A stretch of 64,000 nt of DNA from Culicoidibacter larvae (GTDB lineage Bacteria; Bacillota_I; Bacilli_A; Culicoidibacterales; Culicoidibacteraceae): NCBI RefSeq assembly GCF_005771635.1, contig NZ_VBWP01000001.1, positions 310,001 through 374,000 of the forward strand. Direction: 5' to 3'. Positions within the stretch are counted from its first letter, which is position 1. Each line of letters begins with the position of its first letter. The notes beneath the pieces are model-generated. The model ran no database searches. It was given only the letters and a program-made list of their open reading frames with translations, and was not told where the DNA came from. The position numbers and the translations under genes are program-made. This document shows, piece by piece, positions 7,371 to 62,601 of the stretch.

Positions 7371-7783
7371 TGGTTTTTAATAGCGTGCAGCGATTGGCAC
7401 GAATGGTTATCGGCAGTGTCGCGAGCATCTTCCCCCGCCCTATCCGGCGACCAATTTATTTTATGTTAGGAATTTGGGGAACGTATGCGATGCTGTGGGT
7501 GATCTATTTTTTGTTATCGAGCGCGATACCAGGAGCAACGGTATTCTTAGAGGTTCTGCAGCTGATACTTACAACGATGAAAAATTTCTTCTTATTGGGA
7601 TATACACTAGCAAGAGAATATCTTGGACTGAATGAGTTGCTAGCTTGGATTGTTTACTTTGTTCTTTTATTTGGAATTAGTTATATATTGAGTGTGGGGC
7701 TTGGTGTGAATAGTCGAACAATTCGCGGACTTGTGATACTTGGACTTATTGGGCTTTACATATATCTGTATTACTTACAGTAA
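7367..7783 (+). CDS. Small multi-pass membrane protein of the mobile element
   Basis: A 138-residue very hydrophobic protein with about three membrane segments (residues about 24-46, 83-104 and 112-137) and a short basic N-terminus. A strong AAAGGAGGTG lies just upstream of the overlapping ATGATG start. No family motif was recognised. Its coupling to the relaxase-like genes and its position before the partition locus suggest a membrane component of the element, but nothing more can be said from sequence. Confidence 0.6.
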   Translation: MMVFNSVQRLARMVIGSVASIFPRPIRRPIYFMLGIWGTYAMLWVIYFLLSSAIPGATVFLEVLQLILTTMKNFFLLGYTLAREYLGLNELLAWIVYFVLLFGISYILSVGLGVNSRTIRGLVILGLIGLYIYLYYLQ

Positions 7784-7808
7784 TGCGCTGTGTGGTAAAC
7801 ACCAGCGC

Positions 7809-7984
7809 AAAAGTGGGCCAAATGGCCCGGCAGGAAAAGTGGGCCAAATGGCCCGGCAGGAAAAGTGGGCCAAATGGCCCGGCAGGAAAAGTGGGCCAAA
7901 TGGCCCGGCAGGAAAAGTGGGCCAAATGGCCCGGCAGGAAAAGTGGGCCAAATGGCCCGGCAGGAAAAGTGGGCCAAATGGCCC
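7809..7984 (+). repeat. 26-bp palindromic iteron array (candidate parS centromere)
   Basis: Six exact head-to-tail copies of a 26-bp unit plus a seventh partial copy of 20 bp. Each contains the dyad GGGCCA-AA-TGGCCC. The array ends 19 nt before the parA start, where its last bases run into the GGAAGGAG ribosome-binding site. Iterons upstream of parAB operons are typical centromere or repressor-binding sites, so binding by the ParB-like protein or ParA is likely. The ORFs that read through the array merely translate the repeat in rotating frames. There are no spacers, so this is not a CRISPR. Confidence 0.85.
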
Positions 7985-8003
7985 ACTGGAAGGAGTGTAA
8001 AAA

Positions 8004-8783
8004 ATGAAACAAACTAAAACAATAGCGCTGTTAAATCAAAAAGGCGGTGTGAATAAAACCACAGCTGCCATCATTTTAGCAACTTATCTTTCAAATAGAG
8101 GTAATAAAGTTGGCTTTGTTGGTGCTGATGCACAACTGCATGCGACTGGAACGTTGCTAAAAGACGAGTATGTTGAATATGGCTTGTATGACTTAATAAG
8201 TGGAACCAAGATGTTTGATGAAGTAGTTGTCCATATCAATGAAAACTTAGATTTTATTCCAGAAACATTGATGCTTTCAACAGCGGATATTCTGCTTTCG
8301 CAAAAGATGGGTGGGGAAATGTACCTTGCACAACTCTTTGATGATTTGTTTTCTGCTAAAGACTATGACTACATCATTTTCGATTGCCCACCGGCAATTA
8401 ATAAAATTACTAGCGGTATTATTTTGTATGCACAATACTTTGTCATTCCAGTATCTCCATCGAAATACTCGCAAAAAGGGTTAGAAATTCTATTAGAGTA
8501 CTTAGCTCAAGTCTTTCATATCTCGAAGAAAGAACAGAAGAAGTTCTTTCGGGTTTTAAAAACCTTTCATAATCCGAATGAAATCGCCAGCCAAAAGATT
8601 AGTCGATATTTGGATGAAAAGCGCTTTAATATGTTCCATACATATATTTCAAAAGCAACTGAATTTGATACGCTCACCTTTACCAATGATGTAATTATCG
8701 AGGCGAAGCCAAATCATCCGGTCGCTAAAGAATATGTGTTACTTATGGATGAGGTTCTAGAGTGGATAAGTGATAATAATTAG
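8004..8783 (+). CDS. parA: ParA-family partition ATPase
   Basis: A 259-residue ParA/Soj-type ATPase that moves or positions plasmid DNA on the nucleoid. The deviant Walker A is KGGVNKTT at residues 13-20, with the signature Lys13 and Lys18 present but Asn17 in place of the usual Gly. The A-prime region reads GADAQLHAT instead of the more usual DPQ form, and Walker B is YIIFDCPPA. It lacks an N-terminal DNA-binding extension, so it is of the short type. GGAAGGAG precedes the ATG. It forms an operon with the ParB gene 12 nt downstream, and the iteron array upstream completes a standard partition locus. Confidence 0.85.
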   Translation: MKQTKTIALLNQKGGVNKTTAAIILATYLSNRGNKVGFVGADAQLHATGTLLKDEYVEYGLYDLISGTKMFDEVVVHINENLDFIPETLMLSTADILLSQKMGGEMYLAQLFDDLFSAKDYDYIIFDCPPAINKITSGIILYAQYFVIPVSPSKYSQKGLEILLEYLAQVFHISKKEQKKFFRVLKTFHNPNEIASQKISRYLDEKRFNMFHTYISKATEFDTLTFTNDVIIEAKPNHPVAKEYVLLMDEVLEWISDNN

Positions 8784-19182: not shown

Positions 19183-20373
19183 ATGGCTAAAAAAGTAATT
19201 ACTGATTTAGATTTGAAAGACAAAAAGGTATTGGTTCGGGTGGACTTCAATGTACCTATGAAAGATGGAAAGATTACTAACGATAATCGTATTGTTGCGG
19301 CATTGCCTACAATTAACTACATTATCGAACAAGGTGGGAAAGCAATTTTATTCTCACACTTAGGAAAAGTGAAAACTGAAGAAGATAAAGCTTCTAAAAC
19401 ACTTCGCCCGGTTGCCGGACGTTTAAGTGAGTTATTAAATAAAGAAGTGAAATTTGTTCCGGTTACACGCGGAGCTGAGTTGGAAGATGCAATCGCTGCA
19501 ATGAATGATGGAGATGTTATTCTTTTTGAAAACACACGTTTTGAAGACCTTGATGGTAAAAAAGAGAGCGGTAATGATTCAGAACTTGGAAAATACTGGG
19601 CATCATTAGGTGATGTATTTGTAAATGACGCATTCGGAACGGCTCACCGTGCCCATGCTTCAAACGTAGGAATTGCAGCTAACCTTGATAGTGCAGCGGG
19701 ATTCTTGATGGATAAAGAAATTAAATTCATCGGTGGTGCAGTTGATGCGCCGGTACGTCCTTTAGTAGCGATTTTAGGTGGAGCAAAAGTTTCAGATAAA
19801 ATCGGTGTTATTGAAAACTTGATTGAAAAAGCAGATAAAATCCTTATCGGTGGCGGCATGATGTTTACATTCTACAAAGCACAAGGGAAAAACATTGGTA
19901 AATCTTTAGTTGAAGAAGATAAAGTAGCTTTAGCAAAAGAATTATTAGTAAAAGCAAAAGGGAAAATTATTTTACCAATTGATACTGTCGTTGCTAAAGA
20001 ATTCAGTAATGATGTACCATTCCATACGACAGCAATCGACGGTATTGCTGATGATGAAATGGGATTAGATATTGGTGCTGAAACAATACAAATGTTTACT
20101 GCTGAGCTTGCTGGTGCAAAAACAGTTGTTTGGAACGGACCAATGGGTGTATTCGAAATGTCAAACTACGCAAACGGAACAATCGGTGTTTGTGAAGCGA
20201 TTGCTAACTTAAAAGATGCAACAACAATTATCGGTGGTGGCGATTCAGCAGCTGCAGCAATGCAACTTGGATTCGCGGATAAATTTACTCACATCTCAAC
20301 TGGTGGCGGAGCATCACTTGAGTACTTAGAAGGTAAAGTGTTGCCAGGTGTAGATTCTTTATCAAATAAATAA
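19183..20373 (+). CDS. pgk: Phosphoglycerate kinase
   Basis: A 396-residue phosphoglycerate kinase, the ATP-forming glycolytic step from 1,3-bisphosphoglycerate. Family segments in order: [14 protein letters not shown] (residues about 15-28), [56 protein letters not shown], and the C-terminal nucleotide loop WNGPMGVFE and GGGDSAAA. The start at 19183 follows AAGGAGG (19165-19171); the open frame extends 18 codons upstream but with poor context. Between the ribosome-binding site and the start lies a minimal ATG-TAA ORF. It is adjacent to tpiA, as often in Bacillota. Confidence 0.97.
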
Positions 20374-21284: not shown

Positions 21285-21386
21285 TTTCCAAAAATGGTTA
21301 ATAATGTGTTTTTCGTGTGTTTTTTGTTGTTTTTGAACGCGGATTATTATATAATTAAGATAATTTAAGTGTTCGGGGGAATAATA

Positions 21387-24300
21387 ATGAATAATTCGAT
21401 AGCGAAAAAGTTTATTCGCATCTTTTTAGCAACAACGATACTTTCTGGGAGTAGTGTTGTTTTTTTTGATATTCTGGCAAATAGTATGCCGGTGAGTGCT
21501 GCAAGTGAACCAATTACGATTGATAGCGGGACTGAGCATGAATATACGATTCCGGTAGATAGTAGCGAGAAGATTGAAACAGAAATTCCTGATGGTTATG
21601 TGCAAAGTAATACTAAGAAACCGAATTTTAATAAAGAGAATCTAAAAGCGTATAGCGGGCCGGTACCCAGCGAAATAAAAAATGCTTTTCAGATTAGTGA
21701 TAATCAATTTATTAACATTTTAGCAATGGAGGGTACAGTCTCTCAAGAGCCTGCCGTAGGCATTTCAACAATGTATGCTGTGCTTACTGATAAACAGGGG
21801 AATATTCTCTCAAGTAAGTCAATTCCTAAAAATATTAATGAAAGTAGTCCGCCCCTAGTTGATTCTGAAAGCATCGGAGAATATGCCAGATATTCAATGA
21901 GTACTCAAAATGGTAATTCAGTTCAGGTTTTTTATCGTGGCCAGATTCCTGGGGATAATAATATTGATAATCGGATTGCAACAATTACTGTAGATGGCAG
22001 CAATAATATTTCGACTATTTATAGCACTATTTCTAAGGGAACATATGTGCCTCAGCAACCAGTGCAAATGTTTAATTTTATTAAAGGTATAAATCAAAAT
22101 GTTGTAACTGGTGATTTACAAAAGTCTGTATGGAATCTGAAACATTTTGAGGTGTATTATATTAATGATTCAGGAGTATACTCAGAACAGAAAGTGTTAA
22201 CTGCTCCAGATTATTCACAAATGCTTCCTGGTTATGATGATGAAAACAAATTCTTATTTATAACTTCAGATAATATGGTGAGTACTGCTGATGGTGGGTT
22301 TGCTGCCACTGTTATAGCGTATGATCCAACAATTTCGAGATACGCTGTTGTTGTTTGGAATGCAGATGGCAGCATTAAGTATCAGTATAATTTAAATGCA
22401 GGAGATCGCATTACCAGTCAAAGTGATCTTTCGGATAGCAATACTTATTATTTCTTAGAACGCAAGAGTTCAGGGGGAGCAACACTGTTACAGAAGATGG
22501 ATTTGGTAACTGGTGATGTCTCTACTTTGCAGGAGTTTCCGTCTGGAACAAATATTCGGATTTATCCAGATTATGATTCTACTTACGGAACAGAATATTC
22601 TTATTATGGATCTATTAAGTCTGCCACTGGTCCCTTTGCTGGGATTGACGATAGTGGAAACGGTGGAGCAGTCACTGGGACAATGAGTCAAGATTTTAGT
22701 ATTTATAATGCAAGCTTAATAAGTGCTAATGGTACTGTTCAACAAAACTTTAGTAAAAATATTGATGGTGCACTTTATTTTACCGGCGGAAGAACTTCGG
22801 CAACAGATTTTGCTGAGAAGCCTGCTGGCGGTTGGGTTAGTACAAACAACGCTTTCTTTGGAACCATGACTTTAATTGATGATTATGCTCCAGCATTAAA
22901 AGTAGGCTCGCCAGTCATGATAAATAAAGACAGTGTGACTAATTGGGATAGCGAATTGCTTAACGGCGTAAGTGTTATAGATGTTTTTGATTTAACTAAA
23001 GATTTAGGGAATCGAGATCAGTCCTGGCTGGATGAACGCATCAATCGTAATCCTTTAGATGTAGAGCTGGGTTATGATTGGGCAGCACTTGGTTTAGATA
23101 AAACTAAAGTTGGACCGAATACCGTTACCTATTTTGTGACCGATAGTTCAATGCAAATTACGGCTGATTCAAAAATTGTTAACGTTGTTGCTAATTCGAC
23201 AAAATATGATTCCGGTAAGATTGTGGCTTTAGATGCACATAGTTTTGCGATTAGTTTGCAAGAGGCAAAGGATTTAACTGATACACAAGCGAAAGATGCG
23301 ACTTATGGAAATGTGGTTTCATGGGATATGTTGACGGGAACAGCGCTTGATGGAAATGTTACTGTTGATCCAGCAGAGCTTGCAACGATTACTAATGCTA
23401 CGGCTGCCGGAGTATACCCATTAACATACAGTATTGTGGAAAATGGTGTTACAGTTACTAATACAATCAAGGTATTTGTAACTGATAGCAGCACAATTGT
23501 TGATCCGGCTAATGATGTAGTGTTATATGCAAATGATTTCTCGGTTCAATTAAATGTTGTTGCGTCATTTGATAGCAATGCGGCTTTAAGTGAATCAAGT
23601 GCTAAAGCATATTCATATTCAACTGGTGATCAATATCCGATAACGAGTTTGAGTGCAGATGTTAGTGCAGTTCGGGTGGCAACGACAGTCGGTCCGGTAA
23701 ATATGGATATCACGTTTACTGGTTCAAGTACAACAACCACTAGTGTTATTGCCTCGGTTTTAAATGAGGACACAGATATTGCTTCGGATAATTCGTTGGC
23801 ATTATTTGCACAAAATTTCACCATCAACCTGGATGACGTTACAACCCTTGATGCTAAAGCTGCGGCAGAGGTTAAGGCTTGGAATATGAATACAGGTAAT
23901 GATTTAACTTATAAAGTAAAACCTGACTCAACAGAACTGGCTGCAATTACTGGTGCTCAAAATGCTGGACTCTATAACTTAACATTTTTAGTTCAAGATG
24001 ATCAAGGTGATCCTGATGCTCAACCTGGACCTGTAGTTAGCAATACGATAACGGTATTCGTAACCGATGATAATACAAAAGTAAATGGCGATTTGATTTT
24101 GTTCGCAAATGATTTTAATTTGCACTTGGATGAAGTAGCGGATGCGACAAGCGATAGTTTGAAAAACTTGAGCGGAGCTAAGGCGTATAAGATTTCAACG
24201 GCAGGAGAGTTACCTGATGCCAATATTACCGCAGATACAACTGCAGTTAAAGGAGCGACTGCTGTCGGGCCGGTTAACGTAAGTATTACTTATAGTGATG

Positions 24301-27300
24301 GTACGGATACGGTGACAACGGTGGTTGCTTCGATTATTGATGATAACACGGTTATTAATGATAGTGAAGCGATTTATGCAACCAACTTTAAGGTTGCTGT
24401 AAATGATGTGGCTGGGTTGGATGATGATGCGATTATTACGCGGGCCAACGCAAAAGCTTGGAATATGAAGGATGGTACGGGAATAGATATTTCAGTAAAT
24501 GGTGCTATTCAAGCAACTGCTGGAGCATATTCGGTGACTTTTTCAACTGATGCAGGTACTGAAAAGACTATTATTGCAACTGTTTTTGATGATGATATGG
24601 TGATTGATGATGCTAAGGGCAAAGCGATTTATGCTAGGAGCTTCACTGTGGATATCGCTCAAGTAGATACTTTGAATAGTGCGGCGATTATTGATTTAGC
24701 TGGTGCGCGGGCATGGAGCACAATTGATGGCAGCGATATTGATGTGAGCGTTGCTTCAAATGGTATTCAGAAACTTGCCGGTGTTTATGACGTTACGTTT
24801 ACTACGGATGCTGGAACAACCCGAGCTGTAAAGGTGACGGTTAAAGATGACAATACCGTGATTGATAATGGTGAGGCTTTATATGCAACTGATTTTAGAA
24901 TAAGCAGTGATGAAGTTGATGGTCTGGATGATGTTACTGTCAATGCCAAAGCTGGGGCAAAAGCTTGGAAACTGAATGACGGTTCGTCAGTCAGTTTCAC
25001 TACGGAGTTTTCCTCAATAGTAAAAACACCAGGAACATACCCGGTTACTTTTACAACTGATGCTGGAACAAGTGCGGTCATTTATGCGACTGTTTATGAT
25101 GAGGATACAGTAATCGATGATAATAATGACGAAGCAATATATGCGCGTGATTTTATTGTGGATAAGTCAGCAGTTGCGACATTGGATAAAACTGCTGTTG
25201 ATGATTTGGCAGCGGCTAAGGCTTGGAAACTTGAAGATGGCAGTACAGTGACTTTTGCTACCGATTTTGCTGCAATTCAAGATCAGGTTGGTGCGTATCC
25301 GGTTGCGTTTACTACAACAGCAGGGACAACTATAAGCGTAATTGCTTCAGTTGTTGATGCGGATACAACTTTTGATGATGTAAATAAAGAAGCAATATAT
25401 GCACATAATTTTACAGTGACAACAGATGAAGTGGCAACGTTATCAAAAACAATTGTGGATGGTAAAGCTGAGACGAAAGCTTGGAATACTGATACGGGAG
25501 CTTTGTTAACTTGGGTAACTGATTTTAGTGCTGTGCAAAGTGCAGCTGGTGCGTATCCGGTGATATTTACTACAACAGCAGGAACGACACGGACAATTAT
25601 GGTTAGCGTTACTGATGATGAAACGATTGTTGATCCGGTAACGAATGAAGCGCTTCGGGCAACTGATTTTATTGTTAATTTAAATAATGTTGCTACCCTC
25701 GATAAAACCGCTGTGGATACTTTAGCTGGTGCAAAAGCATGGAAACTTGAAGATGGTAGTCCGGTTACATTTACAACTGCCTTTAGTATTGCTGAGCAAG
25801 TCGGGGTTTATCCGGTAACCTTTACAACTGATGCGGGAACGAGCAAGACAGTTCTGGCTTCGGTTGTAGATGGTAATACTAATTATGATGTTAATCATAC
25901 TGTGGCACTTTATGCCAATAATTTTAGTGTCGCACTTGAAGATGCAGCAAATCTAAATGAGGCTATGGTTAAAGACGCAACTCATGCAGCTGTGAAAGCA
26001 TGGAATATGACGAGCGGCGCAGATGTTACTGCCAATATAACTGTGAATAGCAGTGAGTTACAAGCGATTCAAAATGCATCTAATGCTGGACCGTATTCAC
26101 TGACGTTTGAAGTTGTTGAAGCGGGAGCAACAGTGAATAAAGTTATTACAGTTTTTGTTACTGATGATAATACTATTGTTGATCCGGATAAGAATGTTGT
26201 GTTGTATGCAAATGATTTTACAATGCAATTAATTGACGCGGCATCAGCAACGAGTGCTCAAGTTAAGACTTTAACTGATGCAAAAGCATATAACTATGCG
26301 ACTGGAGCGCAACTTTCAGACACTAATATTAGTGCAGATGTTTCGGCGCTAAATACGGCATCGGTCGCTGAGCCGGTGAATGTGCCGGTTATATTTAATG
26401 ATGGTAATATAATTACTCAGGTAGTGATTGGCTCACTCATTGATGAAGATACCGCGCTTGATCCAGATAAAAATGAGGCTTTGCATGCGGCGAACTTCAC
26501 GCTTGATAAGAGTGAAGTCAGTGGCTTAACCAAAACAATTGTTGATGGAAAAGCCGGTGCGAAAGCGTGGAAACTTTCGGATGGAAGTACAGTGACTTTT
26601 GATACTGACTTTACAGCGATTGCCGAGGCAGCTGGTGCTTATCCAGTGACATTTACAACGACAACTGGAGTGACGAAAACTGTCTACGCAACTGTGACTG
26701 ACAGCGATACAATAGTAGACCCTGCTAAAGATACGGCAGTATATGCAGCGAACTTTACGCTTGATAAGAGTGAAGTGAGCGGCTTAACTAAAATGATTGT
26801 TGATGGAAAAGCCGGCGCGAAAGCATGGAAACTTTCGGATGGAAGTGAAGTGACTTTTGACACTGACTTTACCGCAATCCAAGCACAGGCTGGCGTGTAT
26901 CCAGTAAGTTTTACAACGACAACTGGAGTAAGCAAAACAGTTTATGCAACGGTAACTGATGCGGATACAATTGTAGATCCGGATAAAGATACCGTGTTAT
27001 ATGCAGCAAACTTTACTCTTAATAAGAGTGAAGTCAGCGGCTTAACCAAAGCAATTGTTGATGGAAAAGCTGAGGCAAAAGCATGGAAATTATCAGACGG
27101 AAGTGAAGTTGCTTTCGATACTGATTTCACAGCAGTTGCCGAGGCAGCTGGTGCGTATCCGGTGACCTTTACGACGACAACAGGAGTGACGAAAACAGTT
27201 TATGCAACAGTAAGTGATGCAGATACAGTTGTTGATCCAGCTAAAGACACGGCATTATATGCACATGGCTTTATGATTGATAAAACTGAAGTAGCTGGTT

Positions 27301-28376
27301 TAACAAAAGCAATTGTTGATGGAAAAGCTGAGGCAAAAGCATGGAAGTTATCAGATGGAAGTGAAGTTGCTTTCGATACTAATTTCACAGCGGTTACCGA
27401 AGCAGTTGGCGTGTATCTGATAGTCTTCACTACGACAACCGGAGTGGAGCAGACAGTTTATGTGACGGTAACTGATAATAATACTGTTATTAATGGTGAT
27501 GAAGCATTGTATGCGCGTAACTTCAGCATGGAAGCGAGTGATGTGGCAAGTTTAGATGATACCCAAATCATTTTGCTTGCCGAAGCAAAAGCATGGAATA
27601 TTAATGATGGTAATAGCATTCCATTCACAGTAGATGCCAGCCAATTGCTTGCGGAAGTCGGAACGTATCCGGTCACATTTGCTACAGCGGCAGGAACAGA
27701 GCGAACTATTTATGTTACGGTTGTTGATGATAACACCGTAGTTGTTAATGATGAAGCGTTGTATGCCCATAGTTTTATTATAAATATTGATGAAGTAGCT
27801 GGGTTGGATGAAGCAACGGTTCTTGCGAAATCTGAAGCGAAAGCGTGGAATGTTAATGATCTTTCGCCAGTCAGTGTATCAGCTGATTTCAGCATGATTT
27901 CAGCAAAAGCTGGCGCGTATCCAGTGCAAGTGAAAACGGTGCATGGAACAACAAGAACAGTTTATGCTACAGTAGTTGATGATAAGACGGTAGTAACCGG
28001 TGATGTTGCGGTTCGTGCTGACAACTTTGAACTTTTGGTAAGCCAAGTTGCCGGACTGAGCGATGCGCAAGTACGGGAATTAGCTGGATTCCAGGCGTGG
28101 CTAGTTAACGGCGGACAAGATGTCAGCGATTACTTCAATGTTGATTACTCACAGGTTGTAGGGGCTGTTGGCAGCTATGCAGTTATTTTTGATGGAACTG
28201 CCATACAGCAGTACAGTGGTGATTTGATTAGTAAGACGGTTATTGCTAATGTAGTTGCCGATCCAATCAATCCAGATTTGCCAATTACCGGAGGTAACGA
28301 GTTTGAGTTTGGGCTTATTGGCTTGCTGAGTGTTATAGCTGGTGCAGCTTTGATTATTCGTCGAAAAAACCGATAA
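21387..28376 (+). CDS. Giant LPXTG-anchored repeat adhesin
   Basis: A 2,329-residue surface protein. A long signal peptide (basic start, hydrophobic core, VSAA cleavage region near residue 36) precedes an N-terminal non-repeat domain of about 550 residues and then about 19 tandem Ig-like units of 70-90 residues (about residues 600-2,290). The unit pattern is ALYAxxF, AKAW, DGSxVxF, AGAYPVTFTTxxGT, VxDxDTxVD. Four successive units (nt about 26,460-27,480) are almost identical, evidence of recent duplication. The end carries LPITG (about residue 2,297), a membrane segment and RRKNR, the sortase sorting signal. It probably projects a binding head from the wall. Start chosen at 21387 after GGGGGA. 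Confidence 0.88.
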   Translation: MNNSIAKKFIRIFLATTILSGSSVVFFDILANSMPVSAASEPITIDSGTEHEYTIPVDSSEKIETEIPDGYVQSNTKKPNFNKENLKAYSGPVPSEIKNAFQISDNQFINILAMEGTVSQEPAVGISTMYAVLTDKQGNILSSKSIPKNINESSPPLVDSESIGEYARYSMSTQNGNSVQVFYRGQIPGDNNIDNRIATITVDGSNNISTIYSTISKGTYVPQQPVQMFNFIKGINQNVVTGDLQKSVWNLKHFEVYYINDSGVYSEQKVLTAPDYSQMLPGYDDENKFLFITSDNMVSTADGGFAATVIAYDPTISRYAVVVWNADGSIKYQYNLNAGDRITSQSDLSDSNTYYFLERKSSGGATLLQKMDLVTGDVSTLQEFPSGTNIRIYPDYDSTYGTEYSYYGSIKSATGPFAGIDDSGNGGAVTGTMSQDFSIYNASLISANGTVQQNFSKNIDGALYFTGGRTSATDFAEKPAGGWVSTNNAFFGTMTLIDDYAPALKVGSPVMINKDSVTNWDSELLNGVSVIDVFDLTKDLGNRDQSWLDERINRNPLDVELGYDWAALGLDKTKVGPNTVTYFVTDSSMQITADSKIVNVVANSTKYDSGKIVALDAHSFAISLQEAKDLTDTQAKDATYGNVVSWDMLTGTALDGNVTVDPAELATITNATAAGVYPLTYSIVENGVTVTNTIKVFVTDSSTIVDPANDVVLYANDFSVQLNVVASFDSNAALSESSAKAYSYSTGDQYPITSLSADVSAVRVATTVGPVNMDITFTGSSTTTTSVIASVLNEDTDIASDNSLALFAQNFTINLDDVTTLDAKAAAEVKAWNMNTGNDLTYKVKPDSTELAAITGAQNAGLYNLTFLVQDDQGDPDAQPGPVVSNTITVFVTDDNTKVNGDLILFANDFNLHLDEVADATSDSLKNLSGAKAYKISTAGELPDANITADTTAVKGATAVGPVNVSITYSDGTDTVTTVVASIIDDNTVINDSEAIYATNFKVAVNDVAGLDDDAIITRANAKAWNMKDGTGIDISVNGAIQATAGAYSVTFSTDAGTEKTIIATVFDDDMVIDDAKGKAIYARSFTVDIAQVDTLNSAAIIDLAGARAWSTIDGSDIDVSVASNGIQKLAGVYDVTFTTDAGTTRAVKVTVKDDNTVIDNGEALYATDFRISSDEVDGLDDVTVNAKAGAKAWKLNDGSSVSFTTEFSSIVKTPGTYPVTFTTDAGTSAVIYATVYDEDTVIDDNNDEAIYARDFIVDKSAVATLDKTAVDDLAAAKAWKLEDGSTVTFATDFAAIQDQVGAYPVAFTTTAGTTISVIASVVDADTTFDDVNKEAIYAHNFTVTTDEVATLSKTIVDGKAETKAWNTDTGALLTWVTDFSAVQSAAGAYPVIFTTTAGTTRTIMVSVTDDETIVDPVTNEALRATDFIVNLNNVATLDKTAVDTLAGAKAWKLEDGSPVTFTTAFSIAEQVGVYPVTFTTDAGTSKTVLASVVDGNTNYDVNHTVALYANNFSVALEDAANLNEAMVKDATHAAVKAWNMTSGADVTANITVNSSELQAIQNASNAGPYSLTFEVVEAGATVNKVITVFVTDDNTIVDPDKNVVLYANDFTMQLIDAASATSAQVKTLTDAKAYNYATGAQLSDTNISADVSALNTASVAEPVNVPVIFNDGNIITQVVIGSLIDEDTALDPDKNEALHAANFTLDKSEVSGLTKTIVDGKAGAKAWKLSDGSTVTFDTDFTAIAEAAGAYPVTFTTTTGVTKTVYATVTDSDTIVDPAKDTAVYAANFTLDKSEVSGLTKMIVDGKAGAKAWKLSDGSEVTFDTDFTAIQAQAGVYPVSFTTTTGVSKTVYATVTDADTIVDPDKDTVLYAANFTLNKSEVSGLTKAIVDGKAEAKAWKLSDGSEVAFDTDFTAVAEAAGAYPVTFTTTTGVTKTVYATVSDADTVVDPAKDTALYAHGFMIDKTEVAGLTKAIVDGKAEAKAWKLSDGSEVAFDTNFTAVTEAVGVYLIVFTTTTGVEQTVYVTVTDNNTVINGDEALYARNFSMEASDVASLDDTQIILLAEAKAWNINDGNSIPFTVDASQLLAEVGTYPVTFATAAGTERTIYVTVVDDNTVVVNDEALYAHSFIINIDEVAGLDEATVLAKSEAKAWNVNDLSPVSVSADFSMISAKAGAYPVQVKTVHGTTRTVYATVVDDKTVVTGDVAVRADNFELLVSQVAGLSDAQVRELAGFQAWLVNGGQDVSDYFNVDYSQVVGAVGSYAVIFDGTAIQQYSGDLISKTVIANVVADPINPDLPITGGNEFEFGLIGLLSVIAGAALIIRRKNR

Positions 28377-30792: not shown

Positions 30793-31203
30793 ATGCCTAC
30801 AATCAATCAACTTGTTCGCAAAGGCCGTGAATCAAAAGTAAGAAAAACAAAAGCTCCAGCGTTAGGTGTTGGAATTAACAGCTTGAAAAAGAAACAAACT
30901 GAAGTAAATTCACCGCAAAAACGTGGCGTATGTACTCGTGTTGGTACAATGACACCGAAGAAACCAAACTCGGCGCTTCGTAAATATGCCCGTGTGCGTT
31001 TATCAAATAGTATTGAAGTTACAGCGTATATTCCTGGTGAAGGACACAACCTTCAAGAACATAGTGTTGTGTTAATCCGTGGAGGACGTATCAAAGACTT
31101 ACCTGGGGTACGTTACCGTATTATCCGTGGTGCACTTGATACTGCTGGGGTTAATAACCGTAAGCAATCACGTTCACGTTATGGTACTAAACGTCCTAAG
31201 TAA
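30793..31203 (+). CDS. rpsL: 30S ribosomal protein S12
   Basis: A 136-residue S12 of the ribosomal decoding centre. Conserved segments: [45 protein letters not shown] (with the streptomycin-region Lys in PKKPNS), [35 protein letters not shown], ending [11 protein letters not shown]. The common K42 and K87 resistance sites appear wild type (Lys). GAGAGGAGG precedes the ATG. First gene of the str block, driven by the promoter at 30644-30672. Confidence 0.98.
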
Positions 31204-31513
31204 TTTTTGAAGCATTGAGAAGCGCTCGCAATCTTTGAAAATTGCATAAAATTATTCGGTTACGTATATTTAGATACGCGCCCTCATAATTTTATACAAT
31301 TTCCTTTGATTTCAATCGCTTTCAAATACTTCAAAATAATAACAATAAACGTAACAAAAATATGAATAAAATTAAAATGGATTAGACTGTGGCGTATTTG
31401 AGGAAAAGCCGTGAGATGAAGGAGGAGCGTATCTAAATATACGTGACGACTGAGGCGAGGGGCTTTGACGATGAAGACGACCAGTATCATTCATTTTGAA
31501 GGGAGGAAATGAC
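31204..31513 (+). repeat. rpsL-rpsG intergenic region with two long hairpin elements
   Basis: A 310-nt gap, long for a str operon and without a gene. Element R1 (31215-31325) folds as a three-tier hairpin: TTGAGAAGCG/CGCTTTCAA, a 19-nt stem (31237-31255 with 31286-31304, 17 pairs), and an apical CGTAT/ATACG stem. Element R2 (31405-31466) has an AAAGCC/GGCTTT base and an apical segment (31427-31444) that is the exact reverse complement of the R1 apex (31262-31279). R1 aligns without gaps to an element after nadV at 62409-62601. Confidence 0.75.
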
Positions 31514-31984
31514 ATGCCACGTAAAGGAGCAGTCGCAAAACGCGATGTATTGCCAGATCCGATTTATAACTCGAAAATGGTGACACGCCTTATTAATAAA
31601 ATTATGATCGACGGTAAACGTGGAACTGCACAAAACATTTTATATGGTGCGTTCAACATTATCGCTGAAAAAACTGAGCAAGAGCCAATGGCAGTTTTCG
31701 AACAAGCGTTAGAAAACATTATGCCGATTCTTGAAGTAAAAGCTCGCCGTGTTGGTGGTGCAAACTACCAAGTACCGATCGAGGTAACACCTGAGCGTAA
31801 AGTTACATTAGGACTTCGTTGGTTAGTTAATTATTCACGTCTTCGTGGAGAGAAAACTATGGAAATCCGTCTTGCTAACGAAATCATGGATGCTGCTAAT
31901 GGAAATGGAGCATCAGTGAAAAAACGTGAAGATACACATAAGATGGCAGAAGCAAACCGTGCGTTTGCACACTACCGTTGGTAA
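31514..31984 (+). CDS. rpsG: 30S ribosomal protein S7
   Basis: A 156-residue S7, which nucleates assembly of the 30S head. Conserved segments: [93 protein letters not shown], and a C-terminal [20 protein letters not shown]. Start at 31514 after AGGGAGG. It is preceded by an unusually long structured gap and followed by fusA after 118 nt. Confidence 0.98.
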
Positions 31985-60243: not shown

Positions 60244-60948
60244 ATGAATAAGCTGATGGATTATTTGACGAATGATGAGCGTGGGCAGAAGGCCTACGCG
60301 ATAGGGTTCTTAGTTAGTGGTGTACTGCTTTCGATTTTGATTTCGGTGTTATTTTTTGATCCGCAGACTTCGACGGTTTGGTTTGAGGCGTTTAAGTTGG
60401 CGGTGGCTTGTGGTGGGTACTTGTGTGTGTACTTGCTGGCGATTCGTCGGAATAGCGGGAATGTGACCGGGTTCGTGGTGAATATTGGTGAGATTATTAT
60501 TCAGGCGAGTTATGGTGCTTTTGGGCTGGCAATTAATCCGATTTTCTATGGTGCGACACATTTGTGGGGGATGATTGCCTGGAACAAGAGCAAGCAGGAT
60601 GATGGTACGATTCAGACGAAGAAGGCGCACAAGGTGGGCTTGGTCGTGAGTGGTATCTTCTTGGTGATTGCGGCAGCGATTGTTGGCTACTTGTGGTTTA
60701 ATGGTTATTTCGTAGAAATGACCGGGATGTTTATTGGGTTGAATATTTTAGCAATCATCCTCGGGACGATTGCGCAGGGGACAATGATTGCGCAGTTTAA
60801 GTTTGCGTGGTGGTTCTGGTTCGCCAGCAATATTGTTTGGTTCATTATTAATGTTACGACCGGGAATGCGATTTTTGCGTTGCAAACGGTGCTGTATCAA
60901 GTGAATGTTGTATTTGCTTTGTATGATCAGTATAAGAATAACAAGTAG
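60244..60948 (+). CDS. pnuC: PnuC-type nicotinamide riboside transporter
   Basis: A 234-residue membrane protein with seven to eight membrane segments. Family motifs are present: ATHLWGMIAWNKSK in the middle and WWFWFASNIVWFIINV near the C-terminus, lining the substrate channel. PnuC carries nicotinamide riboside into the cell. The start at 60244 follows AGAGGTG; the upstream open frame covers the leader hairpin. It forms an operon with nadV 13 nt downstream, so import and conversion of NAD precursors are coupled. Confidence 0.92.
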   Translation: MNKLMDYLTNDERGQKAYAIGFLVSGVLLSILISVLFFDPQTSTVWFEAFKLAVACGGYLCVYLLAIRRNSGNVTGFVVNIGEIIIQASYGAFGLAINPIFYGATHLWGMIAWNKSKQDDGTIQTKKAHKVGLVVSGIFLVIAAAIVGYLWFNGYFVEMTGMFIGLNILAIILGTIAQGTMIAQFKFAWWFWFASNIVWFIINVTTGNAIFALQTVLYQVNVVFALYDQYKNNK

Positions 60949-60961
60949 GGAGTTGTTTCTT

Positions 60962-62413
60962 ATGAAAGAGAAAAATTTAATTTTACAGACGGATAGTTAT
61001 AAGTTGTCGCATTTTCAGCAGTTTCCTGATGGTATGACGTATATGTTTGATTATATCGAGAGTCGTGGCGGGGCGTATGGCTACACGCGATTTTTCGGTT
61101 TGCAGTATTTGCTGAAGGAATATTTGGAACGTCGGGTGACGATGGCGATGGTTGACGAGGCGGCAGCTATCGCGGCTTGGCATGGGGTGCCGTTTAATTA
61201 CGATGGCTGGAAATATATTGTTGAGGTTCTTGACGGAAAGTTGCCGTTGTTAATTCGTGCGGTGCCGGAGGGTGCGATTGTGCGCAATCATAATGCGTTG
61301 GTGACGGTTGAGAGTACTGATGCGAATGTGCCGTGGATTGTTGGCTGGGCGGAGACTTTGTTGATGAAGGTGTGGTATCCGGTGACGGTGACGACGTTTA
61401 GTTATAAGGTGCATCGGATGATTGGTGCGTTTTTGGAGCTGACGAGTGATAATGCTGAGAGTGAGTTGCCGTTTAAGCTGCATGATTTTGGTTATCGCGG
61501 GGCGTCGAGTGAGGAGAGCGCCGGTATTGGCGGGATGTCACACTTGGTGAATTTTATGGGTACTGATACTTTGGCAGCGTTGCTGTATGCGCGTGATTAT
61601 TATGGTGCGGAGCAGGCCGGCTTTAGCGTGCCGGCGAGTGAGCATTCGACGATGACGTCGTGGGGACGCGAGCGTGAGAGCGATGCGTTCCGGAATATGA
61701 TTGAGAAGCATGATGAATTTCCGTTGATTAGTATTGTTTCGGATTCGTATAATTTTTATGAGGCGGTTGAGAATAAGTTTGGTGTTGAGTTGCATGATGT
61801 GATTATGGCGCATGATGGTTTTGTGGTGATTCGTCCGGATAGTGGTGATGCTTTGACGAATATTTTGTTTACGTTGGAGAGTGCTGAGAAGCATTTTGGC
61901 GTGACGCTGAATTCCAAAGGCTACAAGGTGTTGAATAAAATCCGTATTTTGCAGGGCGATGGCGTTTCTGAGAATGTGATTTATGATATCTTGCTGACGA
62001 TGAAGAAGGAAGGGTACTCGGCAGAGAATATTGCTTTTGGAGTCGGTGGTGCTTTGTTGCAAGGTAATTATCAGTCGTCAATTAATCGCGATACCCATAA
62101 GTTTGCGATGAAGTGTTCGGCAATTGGTTTAGGTGCTGGTGATGCGTTTAAGCTGCAAGATGTGTATAAGTCGCCGATTACTGATCGCGGTAAGGTGTCT
62201 AAACGTGGGCGTTTGGACACGATTGTCAATGGGGACGGTCGCGTCGAAACCGTCAACATTGACCAGCTTCCTCTAGGGGAATATCATCCGGACACGATTT
62301 TGCAGACGGTGTATCGTGATGGTGGCATTGTGAAGTTGTATGGTTGGGATGAGGTTAAGGAAAATGAGGATTTGGTGCCACATGCGTTCCCGTCTGGACT
62401 GGAGGGAAAATAG
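60962..62413 (+). CDS. nadV: Nicotinamide phosphoribosyltransferase
   Basis: A 483-residue type II PRTase making NMN from nicotinamide and PRPP. Family segments: QTDSYKLSHFQQFPDGMTYMFDYIESRGG at the N-terminus, KLHDFGYRGASSEESAGIGG with the catalytic His region, IVSDSYNFYEAV and VIRPDSGDALTNILFTLE, GVGGALLQ, and DAFKLQDVYKSPITDRGKVSKRGRLD. Normal NAMPT/NadV length. GGGAG precedes the ATG. With pnuC and the downstream Nudix regulator it forms an NAD salvage cluster. Confidence 0.95.
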   Translation: MKEKNLILQTDSYKLSHFQQFPDGMTYMFDYIESRGGAYGYTRFFGLQYLLKEYLERRVTMAMVDEAAAIAAWHGVPFNYDGWKYIVEVLDGKLPLLIRAVPEGAIVRNHNALVTVESTDANVPWIVGWAETLLMKVWYPVTVTTFSYKVHRMIGAFLELTSDNAESELPFKLHDFGYRGASSEESAGIGGMSHLVNFMGTDTLAALLYARDYYGAEQAGFSVPASEHSTMTSWGRERESDAFRNMIEKHDEFPLISIVSDSYNFYEAVENKFGVELHDVIMAHDGFVVIRPDSGDALTNILFTLESAEKHFGVTLNSKGYKVLNKIRILQGDGVSENVIYDILLTMKKEGYSAENIAFGVGGALLQGNYQSSINRDTHKFAMKCSAIGLGAGDAFKLQDVYKSPITDRGKVSKRGRLDTIVNGDGRVETVNIDQLPLGEYHPDTILQTVYRDGGIVKLYGWDEVKENEDLVPHAFPSGLEGK

Positions 62414-62601
62414 ATTGTTGAAAAACGTTCGCAATCTATGCAAACTGACAAAAATTGCTCAATCACGTATCTTTGGATACGCTCAATCACAATTTTTGCC
62501 AGTTTCCTACGATTTCCGACGCGCTTGTGCTAGTACCTTGCGTGAATCGTTTTTCGACGCAAATCTTTGATTTGCTAGTCCCTTGTGGAAATCAATCTAT
62601 T
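62409..62601 (+). repeat. Large branched hairpin element (R3) after nadV
   Basis: AATAGATTG (62409-62417, across the nadV stop) pairs with CAATCTATT (62593-62601). Inside, AAACTGACAAAAATTG (62442-62457) pairs with CAATTTTTGCCAGTTT (62490-62505, 15 of 16), enclosing CGTATC-TTTG-GATACG and two identical unpaired CTCAATCA segments. A further GCAAATC/GATTTGC hairpin lies near 62560-62575. It aligns without gaps to R1 at 31215-31325. Confidence 0.75.

Follow-up and report, generated by a model that had tools for sequence, protein, structure and literature searches.

ERIC-like Imperfect Palindromes in Culicoidibacter larvae: A Dispersed Element, Probably Mobile and Probably Read as a Folded Single Strand

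Introduction

What kind of element occupies the gap between the ribosomal protein genes rpsL and rpsG of Culicoidibacter larvae? The window analyzed here, a 64,000-nt stretch of contig NZ_VBWP01000001.1, carries in this gap a hairpin segment that recurs farther along the same stretch with stems that differ in sequence and still pair. The initial annotation, made from the letters alone, proposed two alternatives: a family of structured RNAs not yet described, or a repeat of the MITE/REP kind. This work examines the fold, the strand, the genomic position, and the distribution of the element, and compares it with known systems, above all with the ERIC repeats.

Palindromic Elements in the Window

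Two covariance models were employed: R1, built from 15 copies of the C. larvae element, and R2, a generic model built without any ERIC or TTAC-type copy. As the initial annotation had reported, the two segments align without gaps, over 114 nt (31214–31327 and 62417–62530); the stems that it quoted for the second copy are found there, the apical CGTAT/ATACG lies at the tip of both, and stem-pairing exceeds chance in each (z = −4.5 and −3.0 on the plus strand). Its plus-strand reading gave way to the minus strand, which folds better and is the selected one, and its extent of 31215–31325 proved too short, the paired element being about 125 nt long with pairing out to approximately 62–66 nt from the apex. 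Beyond these two segments, a third, inverted and divergent member was found in the rpsL–rpsG gap, along with two additional small modules in the right arm of the copy at 62417–62530. The features are as follows:

30793–31203, plus strand: rpsL (S12; TIGR00981)
31205–31336, minus strand (the folding strand): ERIC-like element 1, the whole palindrome between rpsL and rpsG, with conserved core 31214–31327 (covariance models)
31263–31278, minus strand: apex of element 1, a CGTAT/ATACG stem with a 6-nt loop (sequence and fold)
31374–31497, plus strand: ERIC-like element 2, divergent and in opposite orientation (R2 match 31388–31483, 44.5 bits, E = 4e-8)
31514–31984, plus strand: rpsG (S7; TIGR01029), downstream neighbor of elements 1 and 2
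60905–62413, plus strand: nicotinate phosphoribosyltransferase (NF006629)
62409–62601, minus strand: ERIC-like element 3, the whole palindrome, with core 62417–62530 (R1 and R2)
62466–62481, minus strand: apex of element 3, CGTAT/ATACG with a 6-nt loop (sequence)
62517–62546, plus strand: M1 (CGACGCGCTTGTGCTAGTACCTTGCGTGAA), a module nested within the right arm of element 3 and recurring at the same place in other copies
62555–62588, plus strand: M2 (CGACGCAAATCTTTGATTTGCTAGTCCCTTGTGG), a second module nested within that arm

The 310-nt rpsL–rpsG gap holds two of these hairpins. Element 1, whose right (minus-strand 3') end adjoins the rpsL stop codon, has inverted arms (31205–31267 and 31274–31336) that are 73% complementary, and R1 scores it at 124.1 bits on the minus strand versus 68.8 on the plus strand (R2, 57.1 bits). 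On the minus strand, a G.U pair and tandem non-Watson–Crick pairs adjoin its apex (variant GGCGCGTAT..ATACGTAACC). Element 2 ends just ahead of the rpsG Shine–Dalgarno sequence; its apex, GAGCGTAT..ATACGTGAC at 31425–31447, matches the generic apex pattern, and its plus strand folds at −41.8 kcal/mol. Element 3 lies between the nicotinate phosphoribosyltransferase gene and a Nudix/NtrR-like gene, and the stop codon of the former sits within its outer stem, in which AATAGATTGTT (62409–62419) pairs with AATCAATCTATT (62590–62601), as read from the sequence. Its scores are 99.8 bits on the minus strand versus 37.6 on the plus strand with R1, and 57.3 bits with R2; on the minus strand, a UU/UU-type two-base step and tandem G.A mismatches flank the apex.

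Module M1 occupies the same place in six other copies (L011, L019, L023, L025, L045, and L057). Inserts of about 26–60 nt are found at fixed hairpin places in several copies, and all end in AGTACYCTTGGGGT, TAGTACCTTGYGTGAA, or TAGTCCCTTGYGG. Small nested modules occur in L010, L011, L016, L018, L019, L023, L025, L026, L045, L046, and L057, several of them containing a mini-hairpin, and they look like a smaller mobile unit living inside the larger element.

Two repeats of other kinds were observed in the window: a 26-nt tandem repeat (AAAAGTGGGCCAAATGGCCCGGCAGG, about eight copies) between two genes at 7783–8016, and tandem repeats of about 258 bp (86 aa) within a 2335-aa ORF at 21369–28376 that perhaps encodes a surface protein.

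Copy Number and Spread

The element is not confined to the copies first noticed. In the 2.5-Mb C. larvae genome (G000), R1 finds 39 distinct loci at E < 0.01, and blastn with either copy of the window returns more than 20 strong matches each. No element was found in relatives, neither in 39 searched by pattern nor in 29 searched with R2, and in a tip-pattern scan of 392 genomes of the phylum G000 alone stands out with 28 matches, the others having at most three, which is background.

A tip-pattern scan of 84,980 species genomes, a collection from which the genome of the window and its nearest kin may be missing, yielded 39 stretches in unrelated phyla, in many of which the motif caps a long hairpin whose stem is different. 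The carriers other than C. larvae include Pseudomonadales, an alphaproteobacterium, Clostridia, and a cyanobacterium. With a looser tip pattern (GAGC-NTAN-loop-NTAN-GTGAY), the multi-copy carriers show 4–20 matches each versus 0–3 for the reversed control. Seven tip matches in viral contigs, none at the tip of a long hairpin, were taken as chance, and pattern loci without a hairpin (e.g., L072–L074, L079, L084, and L093) were treated likewise. Rfam gave no match at the gathering threshold in the window and, at relaxed thresholds on related loci, only weak sub-threshold matches, nothing convincing.

Tandem arrangements were also recorded. Four ERIC-like elements follow one another at a spacing of about 172 bp between two genes of Clostridiaceae M8S5 (L253; G054:C1:1077420–1077956). 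Two related alphaproteobacterial MAGs carry tandem arrays in which several hairpin types are arranged in 256–258-bp units; CCTAGCGTAT..ATACGTGG and GTGTAT..ATACAC are among their tip variants, and at one locus the MAGs differ in copy number. The arrays of hairpins are located as follows:

L063, 3990–4640: tandem hairpin array
L065, 5000–5530: tandem hairpin array
L085, 2050–2480: tandem hairpin array
L087, 2030–2600: tandem hairpin array

Fold and Covariation

Covariation between the stems, claimed from two copies, was evaluated across 15. A 41-pair structure is formed in 93.2% of cells versus 84.8% in shuffled controls, and double changes affect 19 of the 41 pairs, amounting to 60 cells against 18.4 in shuffles (0 of 500 as high), counts that are not independent, as copies within one genome are related. 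Sliding the pairing by 1–3 columns lowers it to 35–46%. The two arms of one copy pair better than arms taken from different copies (p = 0.0005) as far as about 62–66 nt from the apex; farther out this excess is null, and conservation falls below 0.5 bit per position past 55 nt.

On the minus strand, the tip reads 5'-GA-nn-GA-G-CGTAT-N6-ATACG-U-GA-nn-GA, with a G.U pair at position 6 from the tip in all 29 copies and tandem G.A mismatches at positions 7–8 and 11–12. Outward from it follow a variable matched stem (14–31), a 3×3 loop (32–34), and then a short helix that is conserved and an outer stem that varies. The same architecture, built on different stems, is present in unrelated genomes. 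In a mixed alignment of 35 sequences, the G.U pair is found in 35/35, the closing tip pair shows 12 double changes (U-A/C-G/G-C), and the AGG of the second loop (AGG/AACG) is nearly invariant; MAFFT/RNAalifold recovers only the tip of this set, as the stems slide. The tip pairs themselves covary (GTAT/ATAC, GTAC/GTAC, GTAG/CTAC, TTAC/GTAA, and ATAC/GTAT), and one Pseudomonadales genome (G040) carries TTAC/GTAA, ATAC/GTAT, and GTAT/ATAC tips together.

A further change was seen next to the tip, where the non-canonical pair on both sides changes jointly from A.G to C.A (GGAGCG..CGTGAC to GGCGCG..CGTAAC) in copies L001, L005, L138, and L149, from at least three unrelated genomes; this is covariation of a non-Watson–Crick pair. 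As for the outer stems, variable yet paired, the idea that they are pre-existing terminators or target palindromes was rejected, given that outer ends recur between copies within G051 and G054; more likely, they belong to the element itself, as ends that have diverged.

The Selected Strand

The inner stem contains 451 Watson–Crick pairs and 50 mismatches that are G.U on the minus strand; read on the plus strand, A.C occurs 50 times and G.T three times (bias p = 5.5e-12), whereas arms permuted between copies would give 81.5 and 35.6. Minimum free energies favor the minus strand in 30 of 31 copies of C. larvae, by a mean of 15.7 kcal/mol, and the corresponding strand in 32 of 38 loci of other genomes. 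After correction for composition, the mean z is −7.63 on the minus strand versus −4.85 on the plus strand, the former being better in 28 of 29 copies. The strand-biased wobbles and the better minus fold indicate that selection for pairing acts on one strand, and this speaks against covariation having arisen by mutation alone. As far as the letters go, the selected strand may be RNA or single-stranded DNA, since either fits.

Position Next to Stop Codons and Mobility

In the Pseudomonadales genome G040, a stop codon lies 57–66 nt from the apex in 12/12 copies, with the gene antisense to the folding strand. The ERICs of Escherichia coli are oriented likewise, about 65–71 nt away from the stop codons of ybhI and cusC. 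In C. larvae, an upstream stop codon lies at 54–67 nt in this orientation for 12 of 31 copies, and further copies stand near stop codons in the reverse one; counting all 31, 19 have a folding strand antisense to the upstream gene beside them, and both orientations occur beside genes (17 vs. 8 for tandem gene pairs). The flanks past about 55 nt from the apex are not conserved, and hence no promoter is shared.

Filled and empty sites are available for the ERIC between cusC and cusF: other E. coli have CAATAACTTTTAACTCC, versus a 125-bp insertion within the TAA stop codon of cusC. The insertion sits in TA-A, and a single base deviates from what a perfect duplication would give. This polymorphism implies that one member of the superfamily can move and has done so into a stop codon. 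In E. coli E2865 (L284, ~19936–20093), which has an ERIC in the cusC stop codon, a TGG-to-TGA change also ends cusC three codons earlier. Orthologous sites compared between the two alphaproteobacterial MAGs were both filled, with tandem copies instead of an empty site.

The tight spacing from stop codons may reflect selection against insertions elsewhere. We infer such a bias because TAA and TAG offer a TA target and operon gaps are short.

Matches Between the Generic Model and ERIC

The TTAC/GTAA tip is that of ERIC; this tip also forms in the fold of the E. coli ERIC, whose better-folding strand is the same as that of the C. larvae element. On a 40-kb stretch of E. coli, R2 recovers both ERIC sites at 25.8 bits, a modest score that would be borderline in a whole-genome search, the next best being 15.3 bits. 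Other ERICs score 28.3 bits (Salmonella), 18.4 (Rahnella), and 16.6 (Klebsiella), and among divergent ERICs three were missed; the best control score was 17.6 bits in 128 kb, including loci picked for chance tip matches. R1 does not match ERIC. In G040, R2 finds all eight TTAC (ERIC-type) copies (E from 1e-5 to 3e-11), and there ERIC-type and C. larvae-type tips stand side by side with the same second loop. Variants of ERIC covary at the tip as well (ATAC/GTAT and ATAG/CTAT), with AAGGC/AACG as the second loop. The joined ERIC primer sequences match 5375 of 5426 E. coli genomes.

Discussion

The copies fold on a defined strand, keep two loops, and are dispersed in intergenic spots, mostly beside stop codons. 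Taken together, the evidence makes it probable that these segments are copies of a non-autonomous mobile element of about 120–130 nt, belonging with ERIC to one superfamily of imperfect palindromes and read as a folded single strand. A trans-acting factor would recognize this strand through the two loops and would move or copy the element, and insertions would survive mainly at gene ends. The recognized strand would most likely be single-stranded DNA, as with attC sites or REPs; what favors DNA over RNA is that transcription of the upstream gene mostly does not yield the folding strand and that the copies have no promoter in common. Thus, the MITE/REP-like alternative of the initial annotation holds as regards a dispersed palindromic and probably mobile element, of the ERIC type rather than REP (about 125 nt vs. 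20–40, and without a Y1 transposase).

The other alternative, a transcribed structured RNA (an sRNA or a cis-regulatory element) under RNA-level selection on the minus strand, would be undescribed as far as Rfam goes. Tolerance of G.U together with tandem G.A loops is typical of RNA. In addition, element 2 is co-directional with rpsG, and the Yersinia ERIC alters mRNA stability depending on its orientation (PMC2229807). However, the selected strand is mostly antisense to adjacent genes (the upstream gene in 19/31 copies of C. larvae and 12/12 of G040), the sequence past about 55 nt carries no shared promoter, and the element is absent from all the relatives searched, whether 39 by pattern or 29 by R2. 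An RNA of this kind is therefore unlikely.

The likeness to ERIC could be convergence between two unrelated mobile hairpins with a similar tip, in keeping with the failure of R1 on ERIC and the modest R2 scores. The coexistence of both tip types with one second loop in G040, the recovery of all eight ERIC-type copies there, and the shared strand and stop-codon position speak against convergence, which we hold to be improbable. The stems could also be neutral palindromes in which template switching copies one arm onto the other, so that covariation would reflect mutation and not selection. Quasi-palindrome correction of this sort would yield stems that vary widely yet stay paired, as they do, but it predicts Watson–Crick pairs without strand bias, against the 50 versus 3 wobbles observed, and the internal loops stay the same across unrelated phyla; this origin is very unlikely.

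Regarding the mobilizing enzyme of the preferred ERIC-like element, Y1, reverse transcriptase, and DDE_3 were considered as candidates, and none is common to the carriers. Y1_Tnp (PF01797) is absent in G000, G042, G051, G052, and G057; DDE_3 (PF13358) is absent in all nine carriers tested, C. larvae included, and RVT_1 (reverse transcriptase) in G000, G040, G044, G047, and G052. With these absences, and with such a transposase gene seen inside no element copy, a derivative of REP/RAYT or IS200/IS605 (Y1 HUH), an IS630-type MITE (TA target), or a reverse-transcriptase-driven element is highly improbable, despite the resemblance of intergenic hairpins beside stop codons to REPs and the TA duplication reported for ERIC (PMC2759123). 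The enzyme may since have been lost from the carriers, several of which are draft MAGs.

A wider reading, which we offer as possible rather than probable, is that of a cross-phylum mobile class: a folded-strand unit with two fixed loops at a set spacing and exchangeable stems, which lands at stop codons, has ERIC as its best-known enterobacterial branch, and depends on a kind of enzyme not yet tied to repeats. ERIC repeats have served strain typing for decades; we know of no mover for them, and to our knowledge they have been described from Gammaproteobacteria only. Grouping them with the elements of other phyla, on the strength of the two common loops and the known folding strand, provides a searchable signature, in which the constrained part is the tip with the second loop rather than terminal repeats, and the carrier genomes provide material for a comparative search for the mobilizing enzyme. 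There is also a warning in this case: covarying hairpins may stem from mobile elements and need not be regulatory RNAs.

Comparison with Known Systems

In integron attC sites, a hairpin directly follows the stop codon, the template strand folds, and structure is kept while the stem sequence varies. The ERIC-like hairpins likewise lie beside stop codons, with a specific folding strand and variable stems. In contrast, attC keeps its ends (R boxes) and varies the tip, whereas the ERIC-like element keeps the tip and varies its ends: with less than 0.5 bit per position past 55 nt from the apex, it has no R'/R'' boxes there, and its copies are scattered instead of forming cassette arrays. RUP, Correia/NEMIS, and other bacterial MITEs are similar in being palindromic, non-autonomous, and 100–160 bp long. 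The conserved parts of these MITEs are terminal inverted repeats tied to IS transposases (PMC2229807), unlike the ERIC-like element, which is conserved at the tip and internal loop and whose carriers lack the DDE_3 domain of IS630-type systems. REPs and BIMEs with their RAYT (TnpA_REP) are also dispersed extragenic palindromes near gene ends that form strand-specific hairpins. They measure 20–40 bp and carry a GTAG or CGTC tag (PMC3733652), as opposed to an element of about 125 nt in a genome, that of C. larvae, without a Y1 transposase.

The closest likeness is to ERIC (IRU, RU-1), a ~125-nt imperfect palindrome that is intergenic, beside stop codons, multi-copy, and mobile without genes of its own. 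ERIC is reported from Enterobacteriaceae and Vibrionaceae (PMC10969869), with families in E. coli, Y. pestis, and V. cholerae (PMC2267715), and published accounts give copy numbers of 30 to 711 per genome and mention TA duplications as well as an influence on mRNA stability in Yersinia (PMC10969869, PMC2229807, PMC2759123). No report of ERIC-like elements outside Gammaproteobacteria was found in the open-licence literature searched; C. larvae lies outside Enterobacteriaceae and Vibrionaceae, and the carriers belong to several phyla. Differences exist: the C. larvae element has a second tandem G.A step at the tip, and outside the two loops the sequence is unrelated, lacking identity to the full-length ERIC consensus. 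A symmetric TA at the termini, a feature of ERIC, occurs in 6/22 copies, short of significance (p = 0.1). Nevertheless, the single long hairpin of ERIC, an imperfect palindrome of about 127 bp, corresponds to arm pairing out to 62–66 nt here and to the 125-bp insertion of E. coli; the core GAGC..GTGAC with its internal 2×2 loop is present in the ERIC-like elements, and they share with ERIC the tip GAGC-NTAN..NTAN-GTGAC with tandem G.A and the second loop AAGGC/AACGnAG. Since the likeness thus resides in the two loops, the architecture, the strand, and the length, and not in the overall sequence, we name the group the ERIC-like superfamily and not ERIC.
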